In this document: positions 21,615 to 27,364 of the stretch, piece by piece
Position numbering within the stretch: the first letter of the stretch is position 1
Layout: the number at the start of each line of letters is the position of its first letter
Source of the DNA: Candidatus Gastranaerophilales bacterium
GTDB lineage: Bacteria; Cyanobacteriota; Vampirovibrionia; Gastranaerophilales; Gastranaerophilaceae
DNA length: 64,000 bases
Reading direction: 5' to 3'
NCBI GenBank assembly: GCA_944324905.1
Contig: CALUYB010000001.1
Coordinates: 186,001 to 250,000 of the forward strand
Notes under the pieces: model-generated
The model's database searches: none
Told to the model about the DNA's origin: nothing
Seen by the model: only the letters and a program-made list of their open reading frames with translations
Position numbers and translations under genes: made by a program

Positions 21615-22200
21615 ACTGTGTCACTCTTGCGACCCAACCGTCACCCTGAACGCCCAAACCCGTCACCCCTTGCGCCCAACCGTCACCCTGAACACCCAAA
21701 CCCGTCACCCTGAACGCTCCGCCTTGTCACCCTGAACTTGTTTGACTGCTTTTGCCAAAATCTTTGATTTTGTGCAAAATGTCCCTACCGGGCAGGGTCT
21801 AATCCTTTTGCGCGTTAATTTTTTAGATGCTGAAATAAATTCAGCATGACGGAGGGGATTGTCACCCTGAACGCCCAAACCCGTCACCCTGAACTTGTTT
21901 CAGGGTCTAATCCTTTTGCGCGTTAATTTTTTAGATGCTGCCCGAATAGGGACATTTTTTGTTGCTCATTTTTCAGATGCTGAAACAAGTTCAGCATGAC
22001 ATTTGTTTTGTCACCCCTGAACACAAAAACCTCGTCACCCTGAACTTGTTTCAGGGTCTAATCCTTTTGCGCGTTAATTTTTTAGATGCTGAAATAAATT
22101 CAGCATGACGCAGGGGATTGTCACCCTGAACTTGTTTGACTGCTTTTGCCAAAATCTTTGATTTTGTGCAAAATGTCCCTACTGGGCAGGGCCTTATAAC
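21615..22200. repeat. Mosaic array of palindromic dispersed repeats
   Basis: This gene-free stretch consists of overlapping copies of two hairpin units: CCCTGAA-loop-TTCAGGG and ATGCTGAA-loop-TTCAGCAT, joined by a conserved linker (CTAATCCTTTTGCGCG and T-rich sequence). A 72-nt segment that includes CAAAATGTCCCTAC occurs twice (about 21726-21797 and 22120-22191). Short reading frames across it are artefacts of the repeats. The same units recur at 27.6, 44.3-44.7 and 47.5 kb. Confidence 0.85.
22034..22109 (+). repeat. Full 76-nt two-hairpin repeat unit, left side of the DGR island
   Basis: This copy runs from GTCACCCTGAAC to CAGCATGAC and contains both hairpins and the linker. The same 76-nt unit, with about two differences, is found at 27622-27697 on the other side of the island. 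Confidence 0.8.
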
Positions 22201-22269: not shown

Positions 22270-22323
22270 AATTGAGTTACAATAACAAAATTGACAAGTA
22301 AATATTATATGCGGAAGTAACTC
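22270..22323 (+). repeat. Partial duplication of the tRNA-Gly promoter and 5' end
   Basis: This 54-bp segment is repeated with a single mismatch at 22359-22412. It includes the tRNA upstream region and the first 13 nt of the tRNA (GCGGAAGTAACTC at 22311-22323), after which the match ends. It is a truncated tRNA remnant that cannot fold into a tRNA. Confidence 0.85.
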
Positions 22324-22399
22324 CTTTGCGAAGCAAATGTGGCTTGTCCACAATGACCAATTGAGTTACAATAATAAAATTGACAAGTAAATATTATAT

Positions 22400-22472
22400 G
22401 CGGAAGTAACTCAATTGGTAGAGTCCCTGCCTTCCAAGCAGGTTGTTGCGAGTTCGAGCCTCGTCTTCCGCT
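22400..22472 (+). tRNA. tRNA-Gly(UCC)
   Basis: The 73 nt fold into a full cloverleaf: acceptor GCGGAAG/CTTCCGC, D-arm ACTC/GAGT, anticodon stem CCTGC/GCAGG with loop CTTCCAA (anticodon TCC), and T-arm GCGAG/CTCGT with loop TTCGAGC. The discriminator base is T and CCA is not encoded. A hairpin terminator follows. The upstream 41 bp and the first 13 nt are duplicated at 22270-22323. It sits at the edge of the accessory island. Confidence 0.95.
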
Positions 22473-22519: not shown

Positions 22520-22745
22520 AAGACCCCCAAAATTTTTAGGGGTCTTATTACTTTTAAACTCCAGGACACAGCGACCGAAACGGCGTAACACCTGCAGTGA
22601 GGGTTAAATATTTTGCAAATTAATGCAAAATTCCTGTTTTGATAAACCAAAGATCATTATGAGCCTAATTATTGAGGCTACCTCACACGAGTTTAAACAT
22701 CCTGCTCTATGCCCATCCGTAAACAGTACATACTCTGAGGATATT
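22520..22745 (-). ncRNA. DGR-associated structured RNA, copy A (template deleted)
   Basis: A minus-strand promoter (TTGAAT 22780-22775, 17-bp spacer, TACAAT 22757-22752) predicts a start near 22745. The RNA would begin with a helix ATCCT/AGGAT (22699-22703/22738-22742), an inner helix TATG/CATA (22708-22711/22729-22732) with TTTACGGATG in the loop, then hairpins CTC/GAG (22682-22684/22689-22691) and AGCCT/AGGCT (22662-22666/22675-22679). All have counterparts in copy B at the same spacing. Only about 28 nt of template 3' end remain (22561-22588, with a 1-nt deletion). A hairpin AGACCCC/GGGGTCT with U-rich tail (22545-22521) would end it. Confidence 0.6.
22521..22547. terminator. Hairpin terminator, both orientations
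   Basis: AGACCCC (22521-22527) pairs with GGGGTCT (22539-22545). T-rich sequence lies on both sides. It would end copy A of the structured RNA on the minus strand and back up the tRNA terminator on the plus strand. Confidence 0.65.
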
Positions 22746-22751
22746 TCCTGT

Positions 22752-22780
22752 ATTGTAAATTTTTTTTAATTAAAATTCAA
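22752..22780 (-). promoter_or_regulatory. Sigma70-type promoter of structured RNA copy A
   Basis: TTGAAT (22780-22775), a spacer of exactly 17 bp and TACAAT (22757-22752) are placed so that transcription would begin at the first helix of the RNA. Confidence 0.6.
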
Positions 22781-22802
22781 GATGAAAATATATTTTATAT
22801 AT

Positions 22803-23197
22803 AAAAACACGTCTATACTAAACACCAGGACACAGCGAACCGAATCGGCGTAGCGCGGATTCTGATTGTTCGGACCGTTAAATGTACCACTATTCAGGTT
22901 AAAATAGTAGTAATTGCTACCATTAGGCGTAGATGACCACACCTCGTTCGGGTAGCAGTTACCATTGTTCGACCCGTCGCAAACACCGTAGTTGTTGCAT
23001 CTGGCTGCGCCGTAACCGCTGTTCCAGTCACAAAGCCTTCTTGAGAGTTTAATATGATATATCGTTATAAACCCCGACATATGGTATTTGTATGTAAAAG
23101 TACAAAAAATAAGCTTAATTATTAAAGCTATCTCAAACGAGTTTAGTTCCCACTCTGCAAACATCCGTAAATAATTTGCACTCCGGGGAGACGTGTT
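22803..23197 (-). ncRNA. DGR-associated structured RNA, copy B, carrying the template-like repeat
   Basis: A minus-strand promoter (about 23233-23204) predicts a start near 23197. The 5' end AAAACACGTCT (23199-23189) is the exact complement of AGACGTGTTTT (22814-22804) at the 3' end, which runs into five Us: an 11-bp helix that closes the RNA and doubles as a terminator. Inside lie the helices CCC/GGG (23149-23151/23186-23188), GCAAA/TTTGC (23157-23161/23175-23179) with the TTTACGGATG loop, CTC/GAG (23132-23134/23139-23141) and AGCTT/AAGCT (23112-23116/23125-23129), a spacer, and the 214-nt template-like repeat. Transcription is inferred. Confidence 0.6.
22825..23038 (-). repeat. Template repeat-like sequence (TR) of the DGR
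   Basis: These 214 nt align without gaps to 24254-24467 on the plus strand. Read on the minus strand, the segment has 15 Asn codons in 71; ten are changed in the target. By my count, 21 of 54 mismatches fall on adenines of this copy, against 5 on adenines of the target, as expected if this is the template side. The 33 mismatches at non-adenine positions are too many for a cognate pair, so it may serve another target, be decaying, or be an old variable repeat. The frame stays open across it, giving a spurious 132-residue reading frame. Confidence 0.65.
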
Positions 23198-23203
23198 TTA
23201 AAT

Positions 23204-23233
23204 AAAATACCATATTAACAATATAATTGTCAT
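23204..23233 (-). promoter_or_regulatory. Probable promoter of structured RNA copy B
   Basis: ATGACA (23233-23228), an 18-bp spacer and TGG-TATTTT (hexamer 23209-23204, extended -10) precede the predicted RNA start by 6-7 nt. Confidence 0.45.
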
Positions 23234-23347: not shown

Positions 23348-25747
23348 ATGGCAAATTTGTTGTGTCGTTGTAACGGCGACGTTAAAAAAGCTTTTACGCT
23401 TGCGGAATTATTAGTTTCAGTGCTTATTATCTCAATTATTATGGTAGTTTTAGCCCCTGTCATCACCAAAAGGGTGACAAGTAACATTAATGTTTCAGGC
23501 GGAGGAGGAAGTACTAAAAAAGAAAGTAAACTTTTTTTGTATAATCCAACCGATCCAAACTGCTCTGCTGTTGCAGGGCAAAATGCTCTTGATTGCAACT
23601 TTACAACAGGAGTTGGTGTTAAAAGCATGAATGTTGTCATGGTCTCAGGCGGTGGTGGTGGAGCAGGGGCTACCACTCCAAATTATGACTATGGAAAAAA
23701 ATTAACTGTAACAAATTCAACTGTTGGCAGTGCTAAAACTCAAGAGTTTACAATTACAAAAGGCATGAAAAACTTTACTGTTACATATCTCTCTGGCTCC
23801 GGCGGCGGTGGAGGCGGCGGAGCATGGATTGAAGAACAAGGTGGCGCACCGACCTCTCAAGCGGATTGTGACAGATACGACGCTAAGTTTTTAACAGCTG
23901 CTCAAAATGGCGGAACACCTGTATGTGTTACAAAATATAATATTGGTGATATACCATCAGCAACAAACGGTGGGATTGCAACATCTGTTACAACCGTATC
24001 AACAAATACATATTGCTCAGCTAACGCATGCTGTTGGCAAGGGCAAACTGCAAGCCCATGTGATAGTTCAGGCACAACTTACAGCGGTTGCAACAGAACA
24101 GTATGCACATGGTATGCTGGAAATGCCTCTTGTCAAGCATTAGCATATAATGGCACAAAAGCAGGTGATTGGAGATTGCCAACAAAAAATGAGATGTCTA
24201 AATGGGCATCAAATATTAACACTATTAACAAAAACAAAGGTGATAACGGCTTGAGGCTTTGTGACTACCACAGCGGTTACGGCGCAGCCAGGTGCAGCAA
24301 TTACTACGTTTGCGGCGGGTCGACCTATGGTAGCTGTTTTCCACAGTATGTCTGGTCGGCTACTACCAGCGGTAGCAATGTTTACGACTTCGGCCTGAAT
24401 AGCGGTTCTTTCAACGGTCCGAATTCTACCTCCGCTCGTTACGCCGAGTCGGTTCGCTGTGTCCTGGAGGGCGGAGCTCAGACCTTTAACTCTTTCGCCG
24501 GCGGCGGAGGCGGCGGCGCTTCTTTCTTCAAAAACTATCAAATTCCCGATGACTTAATAGTTAATAACATCGGAGGAAAGATTGTATTTTACGCGGCAGG
24601 CGGAGCTAAAGGTGGAAACGCTGCAAGTTCCTCTGGATCTAACGCGAGCAATGGTAACAATGGTTCAGAATCATACATTGCTTTGTATGACGCGGATGGA
24701 AATTTAAAATGGGGATTAAAAGCCGCAGGCGGATATGGCGGCAAGGGTGCAACAAGCACTGCAGCAGGCAGTGGTGGTGCTCAAGTTGCCATTTCGAGTT
24801 GCAAAATTTTTCAAAATAATGTGTGGACAAATACAAACTGTACCTCATCAGGCCCAAAAGGCAATGATGGTGGTACTTCAACAGATTCTACGGCCGCTGC
24901 AAACGGAGGAGCAGGAGGGGGCTCAATGTACAGCTCCACTGCTCTTTCGGGCGGAGGCGTAGGCGGCACAAATTCATTAGAAACAGGCGGAAATGGAGCG
25001 TATTATGGTGCAGGAGGTGGAGGTGCTACCACAAGATTTATAACTTCAAGCGGCACTACAACAGCCTCGGCAGGTAAAGGTGGTTATGGGGCAAATGGAG
25101 TAGCTGAGATAACCTATGATTTAACATATGAATCCGCAGGAGGCGGAGGTGGCGGCGGTGGTGCCATGTTAAAGGTTGAAAATATAACTGTTACTCCTTC
25201 TACTACATACACTGTTCGTGTCGGTGGCGGCGGTAATGGCGGAGCTATTATGAACAATGGCGTAGACGGTGGTGAAAGTAAGGTTACTTTCTCAGGTGGT
25301 ACATATGTTTTAAGCGGAGGTAAAGGAGGTAAAGTAGGAACAAGTGGAACAGCAACTACTTCAGCTGTTCATGGTGTAGGCGGTGCAGGTGCTGCTAAAT
25401 CTGGCGCTGGGGTGTCTGTAGCTGGAAGTAACGGAAGTGCTGGAACAATAAGTAATATTGGCTCCATTGGCGGTAGTGGAGGTAAAAGTGGAATAGAGAG
25501 TGAAGGAGGTTGTGGAGCATTATACAGTAACGGTGTAAATTGTTCAGCTACAACAACATATGGCTTAAGTACTATGTTTGTATCTCCATCTAATATATTT
25601 GACGCTGCTGAGTTTGGAAGTGCAGGAGCAGGCGGAGGCGGTGGAGGATATGCGTATAATACAACGATTTATCCAGATAATAACCCAGGGTACGGGGGTA
25701 ACGGGCAAAACGGATATGTGTATTTGTATTGGACAGAGTATAACTAG
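23348..25747 (+). CDS. Glycine-rich prepilin-like protein carrying the DGR variable repeat
   Basis: The 799-residue protein starts with a class III (type IV pilin-like) signal: KKA|FTLAE with Glu at +5 of the mature protein, then a hydrophobic helix (residues 16-38). Glycine-rich stretches follow. Residues about 225-375 form a Cys-containing domain with GDWRLPTKNE, typical of DUF1566/formylglycine-enzyme-like C-type lectin folds. The DGR variable repeat encodes residues 303-374, ending SVRCVL. A further 425 glycine-rich residues follow. It is probably an exported or pilus-associated surface protein; the ligand is unknown. Base composition of the variable segment is clearly more GC-rich than its surroundings. 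Confidence 0.85.
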   Translation: MANLLCRCNGDVKKAFTLAELLVSVLIISIIMVVLAPVITKRVTSNINVSGGGGSTKKESKLFLYNPTDPNCSAVAGQNALDCNFTTGVGVKSMNVVMVSGGGGGAGATTPNYDYGKKLTVTNSTVGSAKTQEFTITKGMKNFTVTYLSGSGGGGGGGAWIEEQGGAPTSQADCDRYDAKFLTAAQNGGTPVCVTKYNIGDIPSATNGGIATSVTTVSTNTYCSANACCWQGQTASPCDSSGTTYSGCNRTVCTWYAGNASCQALAYNGTKAGDWRLPTKNEMSKWASNINTINKNKGDNGLRLCDYHSGYGAARCSNYYVCGGSTYGSCFPQYVWSATTSGSNVYDFGLNSGSFNGPNSTSARYAESVRCVLEGGAQTFNSFAGGGGGGASFFKNYQIPDDLIVNNIGGKIVFYAAGGAKGGNAASSSGSNASNGNNGSESYIALYDADGNLKWGLKAAGGYGGKGATSTAAGSGGAQVAISSCKIFQNNVWTNTNCTSSGPKGNDGGTSTDSTAAANGGAGGGSMYSSTALSGGGVGGTNSLETGGNGAYYGAGGGGATTRFITSSGTTTASAGKGGYGANGVAEITYDLTYESAGGGGGGGGAMLKVENITVTPSTTYTVRVGGGGNGGAIMNNGVDGGESKVTFSGGTYVLSGGKGGKVGTSGTATTSAVHGVGGAGAAKSGAGVSVAGSNGSAGTISNIGSIGGSGGKSGIESEGGCGALYSNGVNCSATTTYGLSTMFVSPSNIFDAAEFGSAGAGGGGGGYAYNTTIYPDNNPGYGGNGQNGYVYLYWTEYN
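24254..24467 (+). repeat. Variable repeat (VR) of the DGR target
   Basis: This 214-nt segment of the prepilin-like gene aligns end to end with the minus-strand template-like repeat at 22825-23038. Its last 21 nt (TCGGTTCGCTGTGTCCTGG and flank) are identical to the template side and GC-rich, as expected for an initiation-of-mutagenic-homing region. Changed codons cluster where the template has AAC or AAT. Confidence 0.8.
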
Positions 25748-25778: not shown

Positions 25779-25820
25779 GGGGTGTACTCCAGGTAGACAA
25801 AAATACACCCCCCTTTTTTT
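25779..25820 (+). terminator. Terminator of the DGR target gene
   Basis: GGGGTGTA (25779-25786) pairs with TACACCCC (25804-25811), followed by a run of seven T. It ends within the stop codon of the convergent reverse transcriptase gene. Confidence 0.85.
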
Positions 25821-26994
25821 ATTCTGTTTCATAGTTTGTTATAATTATTTTCGAAAAGTTTTCATCAGGATGAGTAAAAAGTGTTGTAGATTTTAAGCAC
25901 AATTTTTTTCTTAAGTTGTAACCGTTGACATGCTTGTACATTCCAAGGTAGCTGTTTATTTGGTTTCTAAATTTATTTAGTACTTTTGGGTCAAATCTGT
26001 TTTTATCTTTTTCCCATTTTTTTACCGTATTAAAGGATTTTTTTATAATTCTTGTTCTTAAATGCAGACTGTTTGGCTTTATTACATGGCCTACAAAGTC
26101 AAAGCCCTTGCAAAGTGTGTTCATATTTTTCTTTTTATGGTTAAGTGAGAGCGCTAAGTTATTTTGCAAAAATTTATTTATTTCAGCATAAGCATAGTTA
26201 AGATAGCCTGCGTCTTTGTCCATAAGCAACATGTCATCAACGTATCTGCAGTAATATTTGCACTTTAGCTTGTGTTTAACAAATTGATCAAGCGGATTTA
26301 AGTAAACATTTGAGAAAAACTGACTTGTGAGATTTCCTATAGGCAAACCTTTTTGTGGGTCAGTGTTAAAAAGACTTTTGTACTTGGGCAATAAATCGTA
26401 AAGCCATGGGGGGGATTTCATGTAAACATTATTTTTAGGGTCATGAAAGAGCACTTTTTTAATTAAATTTAAAAGCCAAGGCTCAAAAACATATTTGCAA
26501 ATTTCATTGTATAAAATTTCTTTGTCTATGCTGTTAAAGAAATTTCCTATGTCAGCTTTTAGAAAATATGCTCTTTGACTGTAGTTTCTTGTAATTTTTT
26601 TTGCATATTTTTTAGCTTGAATTGCGCCTTTTAGAGTTCCCCTCTTTGGAATACAGCTGTATGTGTCTAAAATAAATCTATTTGTAAAACGTTCTTTTAT
26701 TGCATTGTAAATGAGGTGGTGAACAATTCTGTCTCTGAAGGCTCCTGCCCAGACCTCGCGCGGTTTTGGTTCGGTTACAATAAAGCAAATACTTTTGCCG
26801 ATTTCATATGTATCGTTTACTATTTCTTCGTAAAGTTCAAAAATATTTTTTTCAAGTTCAAATTCAAAATCTATTGCCTGCATAGTGTTTCGTTTGTGTT
26901 TTCTGCAGTCGTAGTAAGCCTCAAAGAGTTTTGAAATTGAAAATTCTTGAAGTTTTATAAATTCTATTTTATTATTTTGTTTTTTCAAGTTCAT
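25819..26994 (-). CDS. DGR reverse transcriptase
   Basis: The 391-residue protein is a group II intron-like RT without maturase or endonuclease domains. It has the first catalytic Asp in ADIGNFFNSID (about residue 148), the DGR hallmark LPIGNLTSQ at about 217-225 (in place of QGxxxSP of other RTs) and the YVDD box at about 251-254. It copies template RNA with errors at adenines and feeds the cDNA into the variable repeat. The start is the ATG at 26994; an in-frame GTG at 27006 is possible. It overlaps the avd gene, so the two are translationally coupled. Confidence 0.93.
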   Translation of the reverse strand: MNLKKQNNKIEFIKLQEFSISKLFEAYYDCRKHKRNTMQAIDFEFELEKNIFELYEEIVNDTYEIGKSICFIVTEPKPREVWAGAFRDRIVHHLIYNAIKERFTNRFILDTYSCIPKRGTLKGAIQAKKYAKKITRNYSQRAYFLKADIGNFFNSIDKEILYNEICKYVFEPWLLNLIKKVLFHDPKNNVYMKSPPWLYDLLPKYKSLFNTDPQKGLPIGNLTSQFFSNVYLNPLDQFVKHKLKCKYYCRYVDDMLLMDKDAGYLNYAYAEINKFLQNNLALSLNHKKKNMNTLCKGFDFVGHVIKPNSLHLRTRIIKKSFNTVKKWEKDKNRFDPKVLNKFRNQINSYLGMYKHVNGYNLRKKLCLKSTTLFTHPDENFSKIIITNYETE

Positions 26995-27364
26995 TGTCAG
27001 AATCACAAATATTTTTAGAACTGTGCGAAAGCCAGCCGTTAAGCTGTTTTTCTATGTCTTGAGTCATTAGCGTGAGTTCAATGTATTTGTCTTTTGAAAT
27101 ATTCTTTAGTTCATGTGAGAGTCTTAAAATTACGTTTAAATATTGTAATTTTTCAAGTAATTCCTTGATGATTTGCGCCCTGTCTTTAAGGTTTTGAGCT
27201 GAATTTGCCTTGTAAATCCATACGATAAAATCAATCCCGCCGTTGTTGAGCTTTTCGCCTAGAGTGTAGCGAAAATCGCGCTGAAAGTGGATTGTCTGCT
27301 TTGTTATTTCAGCTAAAAAATCAAAAGATTTCTTATATACGTTTAAATGGTGGTACTGTGCCAA
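26972..27364 (-). CDS. avd: DGR accessory variability determinant (Avd), four-helix bundle
   Basis: The 130-residue, mostly helical, basic protein matches the Avd/S23-type four-helix bundle (MAQYHHLNVYKKSFDFLAEI at the start and the GIDFIVWIYKANSA segment). Avd forms a pentameric barrel that binds the RT and template RNA and is needed for mutagenic homing. The start is TTG at 27364 with AGG upstream. Its 3' end overlaps the RT frame by 23-35 nt. Confidence 0.87.
   Translation of the reverse strand: MAQYHHLNVYKKSFDFLAEITKQTIHFQRDFRYTLGEKLNNGGIDFIVWIYKANSAQNLKDRAQIIKELLEKLQYLNVILRLSHELKNISKDKYIELTLMTQDIEKQLNGWLSHSSKNICDSDNELEKTK

Follow-up and report, generated by a model that had tools for sequence, protein, structure and literature searches.

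The window, a stretch of 64,000 nucleotides from a Candidatus Gastranaerophilales genome (G000), holds a diversity-generating retroelement (DGR), a bacterial system for gene hypermutation. Its reverse transcriptase (RT; YVDD; 25819–27006, minus strand) matched Pfam RVT_1 at 57.3 bits, with 8ub7, ‘Reverse transcriptase’, as the best PDB sequence match (E 4e-33). An Avd-like protein is encoded at 26972–27364 (minus strand); its top NCBIfam match was DivGenRetAVD (NF033474) at 36.6 bits, under the cut-off of 80, and Pfam bAvd scored 34.8, under the cut-off of 40. The variable repeat (VR; 24254–24467, plus strand) lies in the target gene at 23348–25747 and was recognized by its mismatch pattern against two template repeats (TRs), TR1 in the window and TR2 elsewhere in the genome. 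TR1 (22825–23046, minus strand), identified from its inverted repeats with the VR (I1 and I2) and from alignment with TR2 and locus L011, finishes in an IMH* end (CTGTGTCCTGGTG); IMH* is the start of cDNA synthesis in BPP-1.

Two copies of a further element lie on the minus strand, where a sequence-only reading of this DNA had placed them (copy B at 23188–23112 and copy A at 22742–22662). Set in register at a spacing of 448–450 nt, they are 84% identical over 37 nt and 71% identical over 28 nt. From covariance models and covariation, leader B spans 23105–23195 (minus strand), 5′ of TR1, and comprises helix P2, helix P3 with a UUACGG hexaloop, a UCGU block and helix P4; it scored 107.4, 101.1 and 91.4 bits against covariance models R1, R2 and R3. 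A promoter scan placed a promoter-like site (ATGACA-N18-TATTTT; 23204–23233, minus strand) 8 nt before it. Leader A (22655–22747, minus strand), delimited by the covariance models (95.2, 87.5 and 78.6 bits, respectively), is of a type that we call A-type, with the outer helix lengthened to ATCCT/AGGAT. It begins about 4 nt after a promoter-like site (TTGAAT-N17-TACAAT; 22752–22780, minus strand) that is conserved in the A-type copies of genomes G003 and G013, and is followed by a truncated TR 3′ end (AACCCTCA...CGCTGTGTCCTGGAGTTT; 22559–22602, minus strand), identified from repeats D19 and I14 and from alignments. A terminator-like stem (AGACCCC/GGGGGTCT plus TTTAAAT; 22521–22546, minus strand), seen in the sequence and with a loop that exceeds the terminator-scan length, ends the unit. 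The two copies had been described as standing next to one template; the link to the DGR template holds, but A and B do not flank a single template, each starting its own unit. They are better read as the leader of TR1 (B) plus the leader of a separate mini-RNA (A).

Fold and covariation of the leader

The folding energy of single copies is unexceptional (z −1.13 and −1.05) and, since folding of A and B alone is unremarkable, the case for structure rests on comparison. The consensus comprises P2 (3–5 bp), an AGAG/GAG internal loop, P3 (9 bp, or 6 bp, a bulge and 3 bp) capped by a U-Y-A-M-R-R hexaloop, the UCGU block and P4 (about 5 bp). The loop earlier given as TTTACGGATG is corrected to this hexaloop, which caps a P3 some 9 bp long. 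Four helices had been proposed, and P2, P3 and P4 are conserved; the fourth, a CTC/GAG hairpin, is not conserved as a stem and was rejected as part of the element, a UCGU-containing block being kept instead. The stem swaps between A and B are present as described (P4, AGCCT/AGGCT versus AGCTT/AAGCT; P3, TATG/CATA versus TGCAAA/TTTGCA; P2, ATCCT/AGGAT versus CCC/GGG); they are compensatory, and covariation across relatives supports the selected RNA structure that had been claimed from them.

We judged the significance of covariation by shuffle and slide controls. When 26 copies were aligned with MAFFT, blind to structure, 97.4% of the P2 and P3 cells were paired, compared with 71.9% when shuffled, and 85 cells carried double changes against 25 in the shuffles and 20 or fewer in every slid-alignment control. 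Double changes occurred at all 12 of the 12 P2 and P3 pairs in this alignment, and RNAalifold, unaided, returned the same two helices with compensatory change at 12 of 13 pairs. Model-fitted alignments gave covariation at 17 of 17 pairs (29 distinct copies) and 183 double-change cells versus 51 (38 distinct copies). P4 was counted on model-fitted alignments only, where its variants were AGCTT/AAGCT, AGCCT/AGGCT, AGCGG/CCGCT, TCATT/AATGA, GCCAT/ATGGC and ACCAT/ATGGT. Because fitted alignments lean towards the model, it is the structure-blind result that carries the argument. G–U pairs are plentiful, commonest at one P3 pair, and their abundance favours a putative RNA on the leader strand over a DNA cruciform.

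Distribution, position and the template in use

As the sequence-only reading had proposed, related genomes were searched with covariance models, and homologues with covariation were found in related gut bacteria. The first model was built from eight copies and was followed by two broader ones, and the search covered 383 family genomes. The element occurs in 9 of these, which represent three genera, and a single genome holds as many as eight copies (G079, seven); divergent copies were found by searches of the genus. In total, covariance models gave 38 distinct copies from Gastranaerophilales-type genomes and one other cyanobacterial-phylum MAG, the best-supported being from one bacterial family of metagenome-assembled genomes whose contigs break at these repeats. 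An RT is present in 8 of the 9 leader-positive family genomes and in 42 of the 374 others (Fisher p 4e-7), the ninth (G005) having only an RT fragment. A leader copy (G005:C26:3568–3659; L060) adjoins this broken fragment, which has in-frame stops, and its P4 pairing is lost, as expected because the RT is gone. Four RT-bearing genomes (G006, G008, G012 and G014) gave no leader match; their RTs lie about 0.4–1.7 kb from a contig end, and the TR region may be missing.

Applied to RT loci, the last covariance model found weaker copies adjoining more distant RTs, including those of Lapin-023 and RA.bin105 (a cyanobacterial-phylum MAG), with weak scores (E 0.0003 to 2.7) and identification partly by position. 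Two further copies (L152 and L153) were recognized by pattern at the avd 3′ end. An order-wide search gave no further genera with the element, and no relative of the RT was found in viral contigs. No Rfam 15 family matched copies A and B or the leaders in 13 further loci (none above the gathering threshold), in line with the earlier statement that no described element has this layout, and the part of the open-access literature covered yielded no paper that treats DGRs together with Gastranaerophilales, Melainabacteria or covariance models. Judged against these two sources, the leader RNA is previously uncatalogued.

Wherever the context could be read, a TR or TR-like (VR-like) unit lies about 50–200 nt downstream of the leader, A-type copies excepted; in RA.bin105 the leader precedes a TR whose differences to one VR fall at TR adenines in 12 of 12 cases. 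Stand-alone copies have a sigma-70-like promoter ending 2–13 nt upstream (for example, TTGCCA-N17/18-TATTAT in genus g37), and copies directly behind avd or RT mostly have no promoter-like site. The promoter position at leaders had a mean score of 10.97 versus 8.66 (sd 0.19), and at the position equivalent to that for leader B there is a promoter-like site in G003 (ATGACA-N17-TATTTT) and at TR2 (TTGACC-N18-TAATAT). Because such a site lies a few nucleotides before the leader in stand-alone cassettes, the template transcript very probably has the element as its 5′ end.

In several lineages, the start of this RNA is complementary to the sequence just 3′ of the TR, a long-range helix (P1) closing the template into a loop. 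The P1 strands are AAAACACGTCT (23189–23199, minus strand; inverted repeat I6) and AGACGTGTTTT (22804–22814, minus strand) in the window, CTAAAATCATTTGAA/TTCAAATGATTTTAG in Lapin-023, CACGGGGC/GCCTCGTG in G260 and CGGGAAG/CTTCCCG in RA.bin105. Testing matched against swapped duplexes gave z values of −6.3, −4.2 (the window), −3.7, −3.6, −3.2, −2.7 and −2.6 for seven cassettes; the same test gave no support for P1 in most G079 cassettes or in G183, G278, G329 and G253. A 5′/3′ pairing in BPP-1 (E −25.5) was matched by 52 of 500 shuffles and is not claimed.

A DNA search located TR2 in a second cassette of the window’s genome (C1:16930–17357), with a leader near-identical to B, then the template repeat, and no copy A. 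Between the window VR and TR2 there are 15 differences, of which 14 are at TR2 adenines; between the VR and TR1 there are 54, of which 21 are at adenines, so that the adenine-specific pattern fails for TR1. Since its differences from TR2, and not those from TR1, are almost all at template adenines, the VR is, by its mismatch pattern, templated in trans by TR2 (C1:17.1 kb), 193 kb away, rather than by its neighbour TR1. Among the VRs found in G000, none matches TR1 with changes at adenines only. Other TR–VR pairs had their differences at adenines in 95% of 21 (L011) and 12 of 12 (L016) cases. The leader is what the TR1 and TR2 cassettes have in common upstream of the TR.

Proposed role of the leader

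In our reading, the template RNA of this DGR clade opens with the element, a structured 5′ leader domain on which RT–Avd would dock; we give this reading a probability of roughly two in three. Recruitment and positioning of RT–Avd is plausibly the most likely role, recruitment having also been suggested by the sequence-only reading, and the leader is probably what directs the RT to the RNA that it copies. As a docking site, it would let the RT–Avd complex recognize the template RNA in cis or in trans; P1 would bring the 3′ end of the TR (IMH*) next to the bound enzyme, and cDNA synthesis would also find its upstream limit at the leader. With a leader that is portable, one RT could serve several dispersed templates, which would explain TR1 and TR2 here, the seven copies in G079 and the arrays in G004 and G050 (described below). 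Copy A counts against a template leader, as its fold persists without a full template.

Template-RNA choice by a DGR RT has been worked out for one phage system, in which the key structure is 3′ of the TR. The DGRs studied here resemble BPP-1 (avd-TR-Sp-brt) in their RT and putative Avd homologues, adenine-specific TR-to-VR change and a structured non-coding RNA adjoining the TR, and the order avd-leader-TR-RT in RA.bin105, Lapin-023, G087 and G023 matches avd-TR-RT. They differ in that the RT-recruiting structured part of BPP-1 is 3′ of the TR, whereas the leader is 5′ of it and often starts the transcript, and in that one RT goes with several dispersed leader–TR cassettes and arrays. In BPP-1, the 3′ spacer folds and recruits bRT–Avd, while a motif at the avd 3′ end, upstream of the TR, terminates reverse transcription (PMC12875486). 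By analogy, the leader, on the upstream side of the TR, could recruit, stop cDNA synthesis, or both. No long structured 3′ spacer of the BPP-1 type was seen: the sequence of the TR2 cassette diverges some 30 nt past the TR and continues into a gene, and L124 and L133 have terminator-like stems soon after the TR. Covariance model R3 found no match in BPP-1 or clostridial DGRs. As a 5′ leader whose consensus is defined, the element would be a second, testable architecture for DGR template choice. Its model helps to find unannotated templates far from the RT (TR2 being 193 kb from the VR that it would feed), and the leader might serve as a portable tag for steering mutagenic reverse transcription to sequences of choice.

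Alternatively, the fold might act chiefly as a roadblock: placed upstream of the TR, it would stop cDNA synthesis at the 5′ edge of the template, with RT–Avd bound elsewhere. The leader does lie on the side that cDNA synthesis reaches last, and in avd-TR-RT loci it either overlaps the avd 3′ end or comes immediately after it, at the place of the BPP-1 termination motif (PMC12875486); we nevertheless consider this unlikely, as the conserved sequences of the loop, internal loop and UCGU block suggest specific recognition over a mere block, and the A-type unit keeps the fold with almost no template to stop on. A fold acting in DNA, as a cruciform or recombination site spreading leader–TR cassettes and arrays, would fit their duplication around the genome and their formation of arrays, and a 5′ hairpin would be able to protect the end of the template RNA. 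Both versions seem improbable to us: G–U pairs are abundant, the strand is consistent, the position is always upstream of the TR and at promoter spacing, and array units repeat without the leader repeating. Protection alone, which had been suggested before and found no specific support here, also leaves the conserved unpaired blocks unexplained. A riboswitch- or attenuator-like regulator of an adjacent gene would share the 5′ position in the transcript, but what follows is a TR and no gene, and Rfam had no match at any useful score; we hold this to be very improbable.

The A-type mini-RNA and leader-headed arrays

The A-type unit consists, in order, of a promoter-like site, a leader with the longer outer helix, a hairpin-bearing stretch, the last part of the TR and a terminator-like stem. 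It recurs in G003, G013, G004 and G005 with the fold and IMH end kept and with compensatory change in the outer helix (ATCCT/AGGAT versus GTTCT/AGAAT), which weakens the idea that copy A is a random relic. We also rejected copy A as a general 3′ spacer of TR1, because TR2, the demonstrated template, lacks it and because A has its own promoter-like site. Copy A is a conserved paralogue with its template cut down to the IMH end; instead of a variable body, it may supply or sequester 3′-end sequence. The A-type IMH end is 1 nt shorter than in TR1 and TR2; in G003 and G004 the expressed VR ends in the same sequence over about 26 nt and is thereby put out of frame. A 3′-end donor and an off-switch are both possibilities for it. 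An IMH that is 1 nt shorter, as in the A-type unit, was seen in the RT-proximal target genes of G003, G004, G012 and probably G006 (L050, ~2902; L082, minus strand, ~5682; L090, ~287; L091, ~22), where it puts the glycine-rich downstream half out of frame.

A leader stands at the head of 32 tandem units in G004, each about 260 bp long (L082, 7283–15770; G004:C1:341.3–349.8 kb), with a second leader mid-array and an A-type copy after the array end. All 32 units are gene-less, none lying within a target gene; 31 are stop-free in the VR frame, and the median pairwise identity is 56%. Across the 31 alignable spacers, the P1 3′ strand (GTGTTT) never varies, while the flanks drift. The single expressed VR of G004 equals unit 14475 except for a 1-nt deletion and two A-to-T substitutions, each at an adenine of the unit; so small a number of substitutions does not prove copying by the RT, and ordinary gene conversion could have acted. 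Comparable leader-headed runs of coding-competent VR-like cassettes occur in G050, of another genus (L084 and L085).

The G004 layout is like that of the silent cassettes in Borrelia vls antigenic variation (PMC11499132), with one expression site, contiguous, coding-competent, gene-less cassettes and an expressed VR corresponding to one cassette. It differs in that the array comes with a DGR RT, Avd and a structured leader RNA, and in that the VR–cassette substitutions (2/2) are at cassette adenines. Tentatively, and at well under even odds, the leader would mark any following RNA as template, and some bacteria would have built behind one leader an RT-driven archive, a long array of pre-diversified, coding-competent silent VRs in which every unit ends with the same P1 3′ strand. 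The RT would copy whole cassettes into the expressed gene; the 3′ end of the copy, also in the 1-nt shorter, frame-shifting version found in expressed genes, would come from the A-type mini-RNA. If true, DGR hypermutation and silent-cassette switching would be linked through leader-headed arrays.

The A-type unit adjoins tRNA-Gly in G000, G013 and G005. In the window, a 59-nt stretch including the tRNA-Gly start is duplicated at 95% identity just before the tRNA (22270–22417), and the same duplication is present in L011 and L064; direct and inverted repeats of the GTCACCCTGAAC type (D1, D3, D6 and D7) cluster at 21638–22190.
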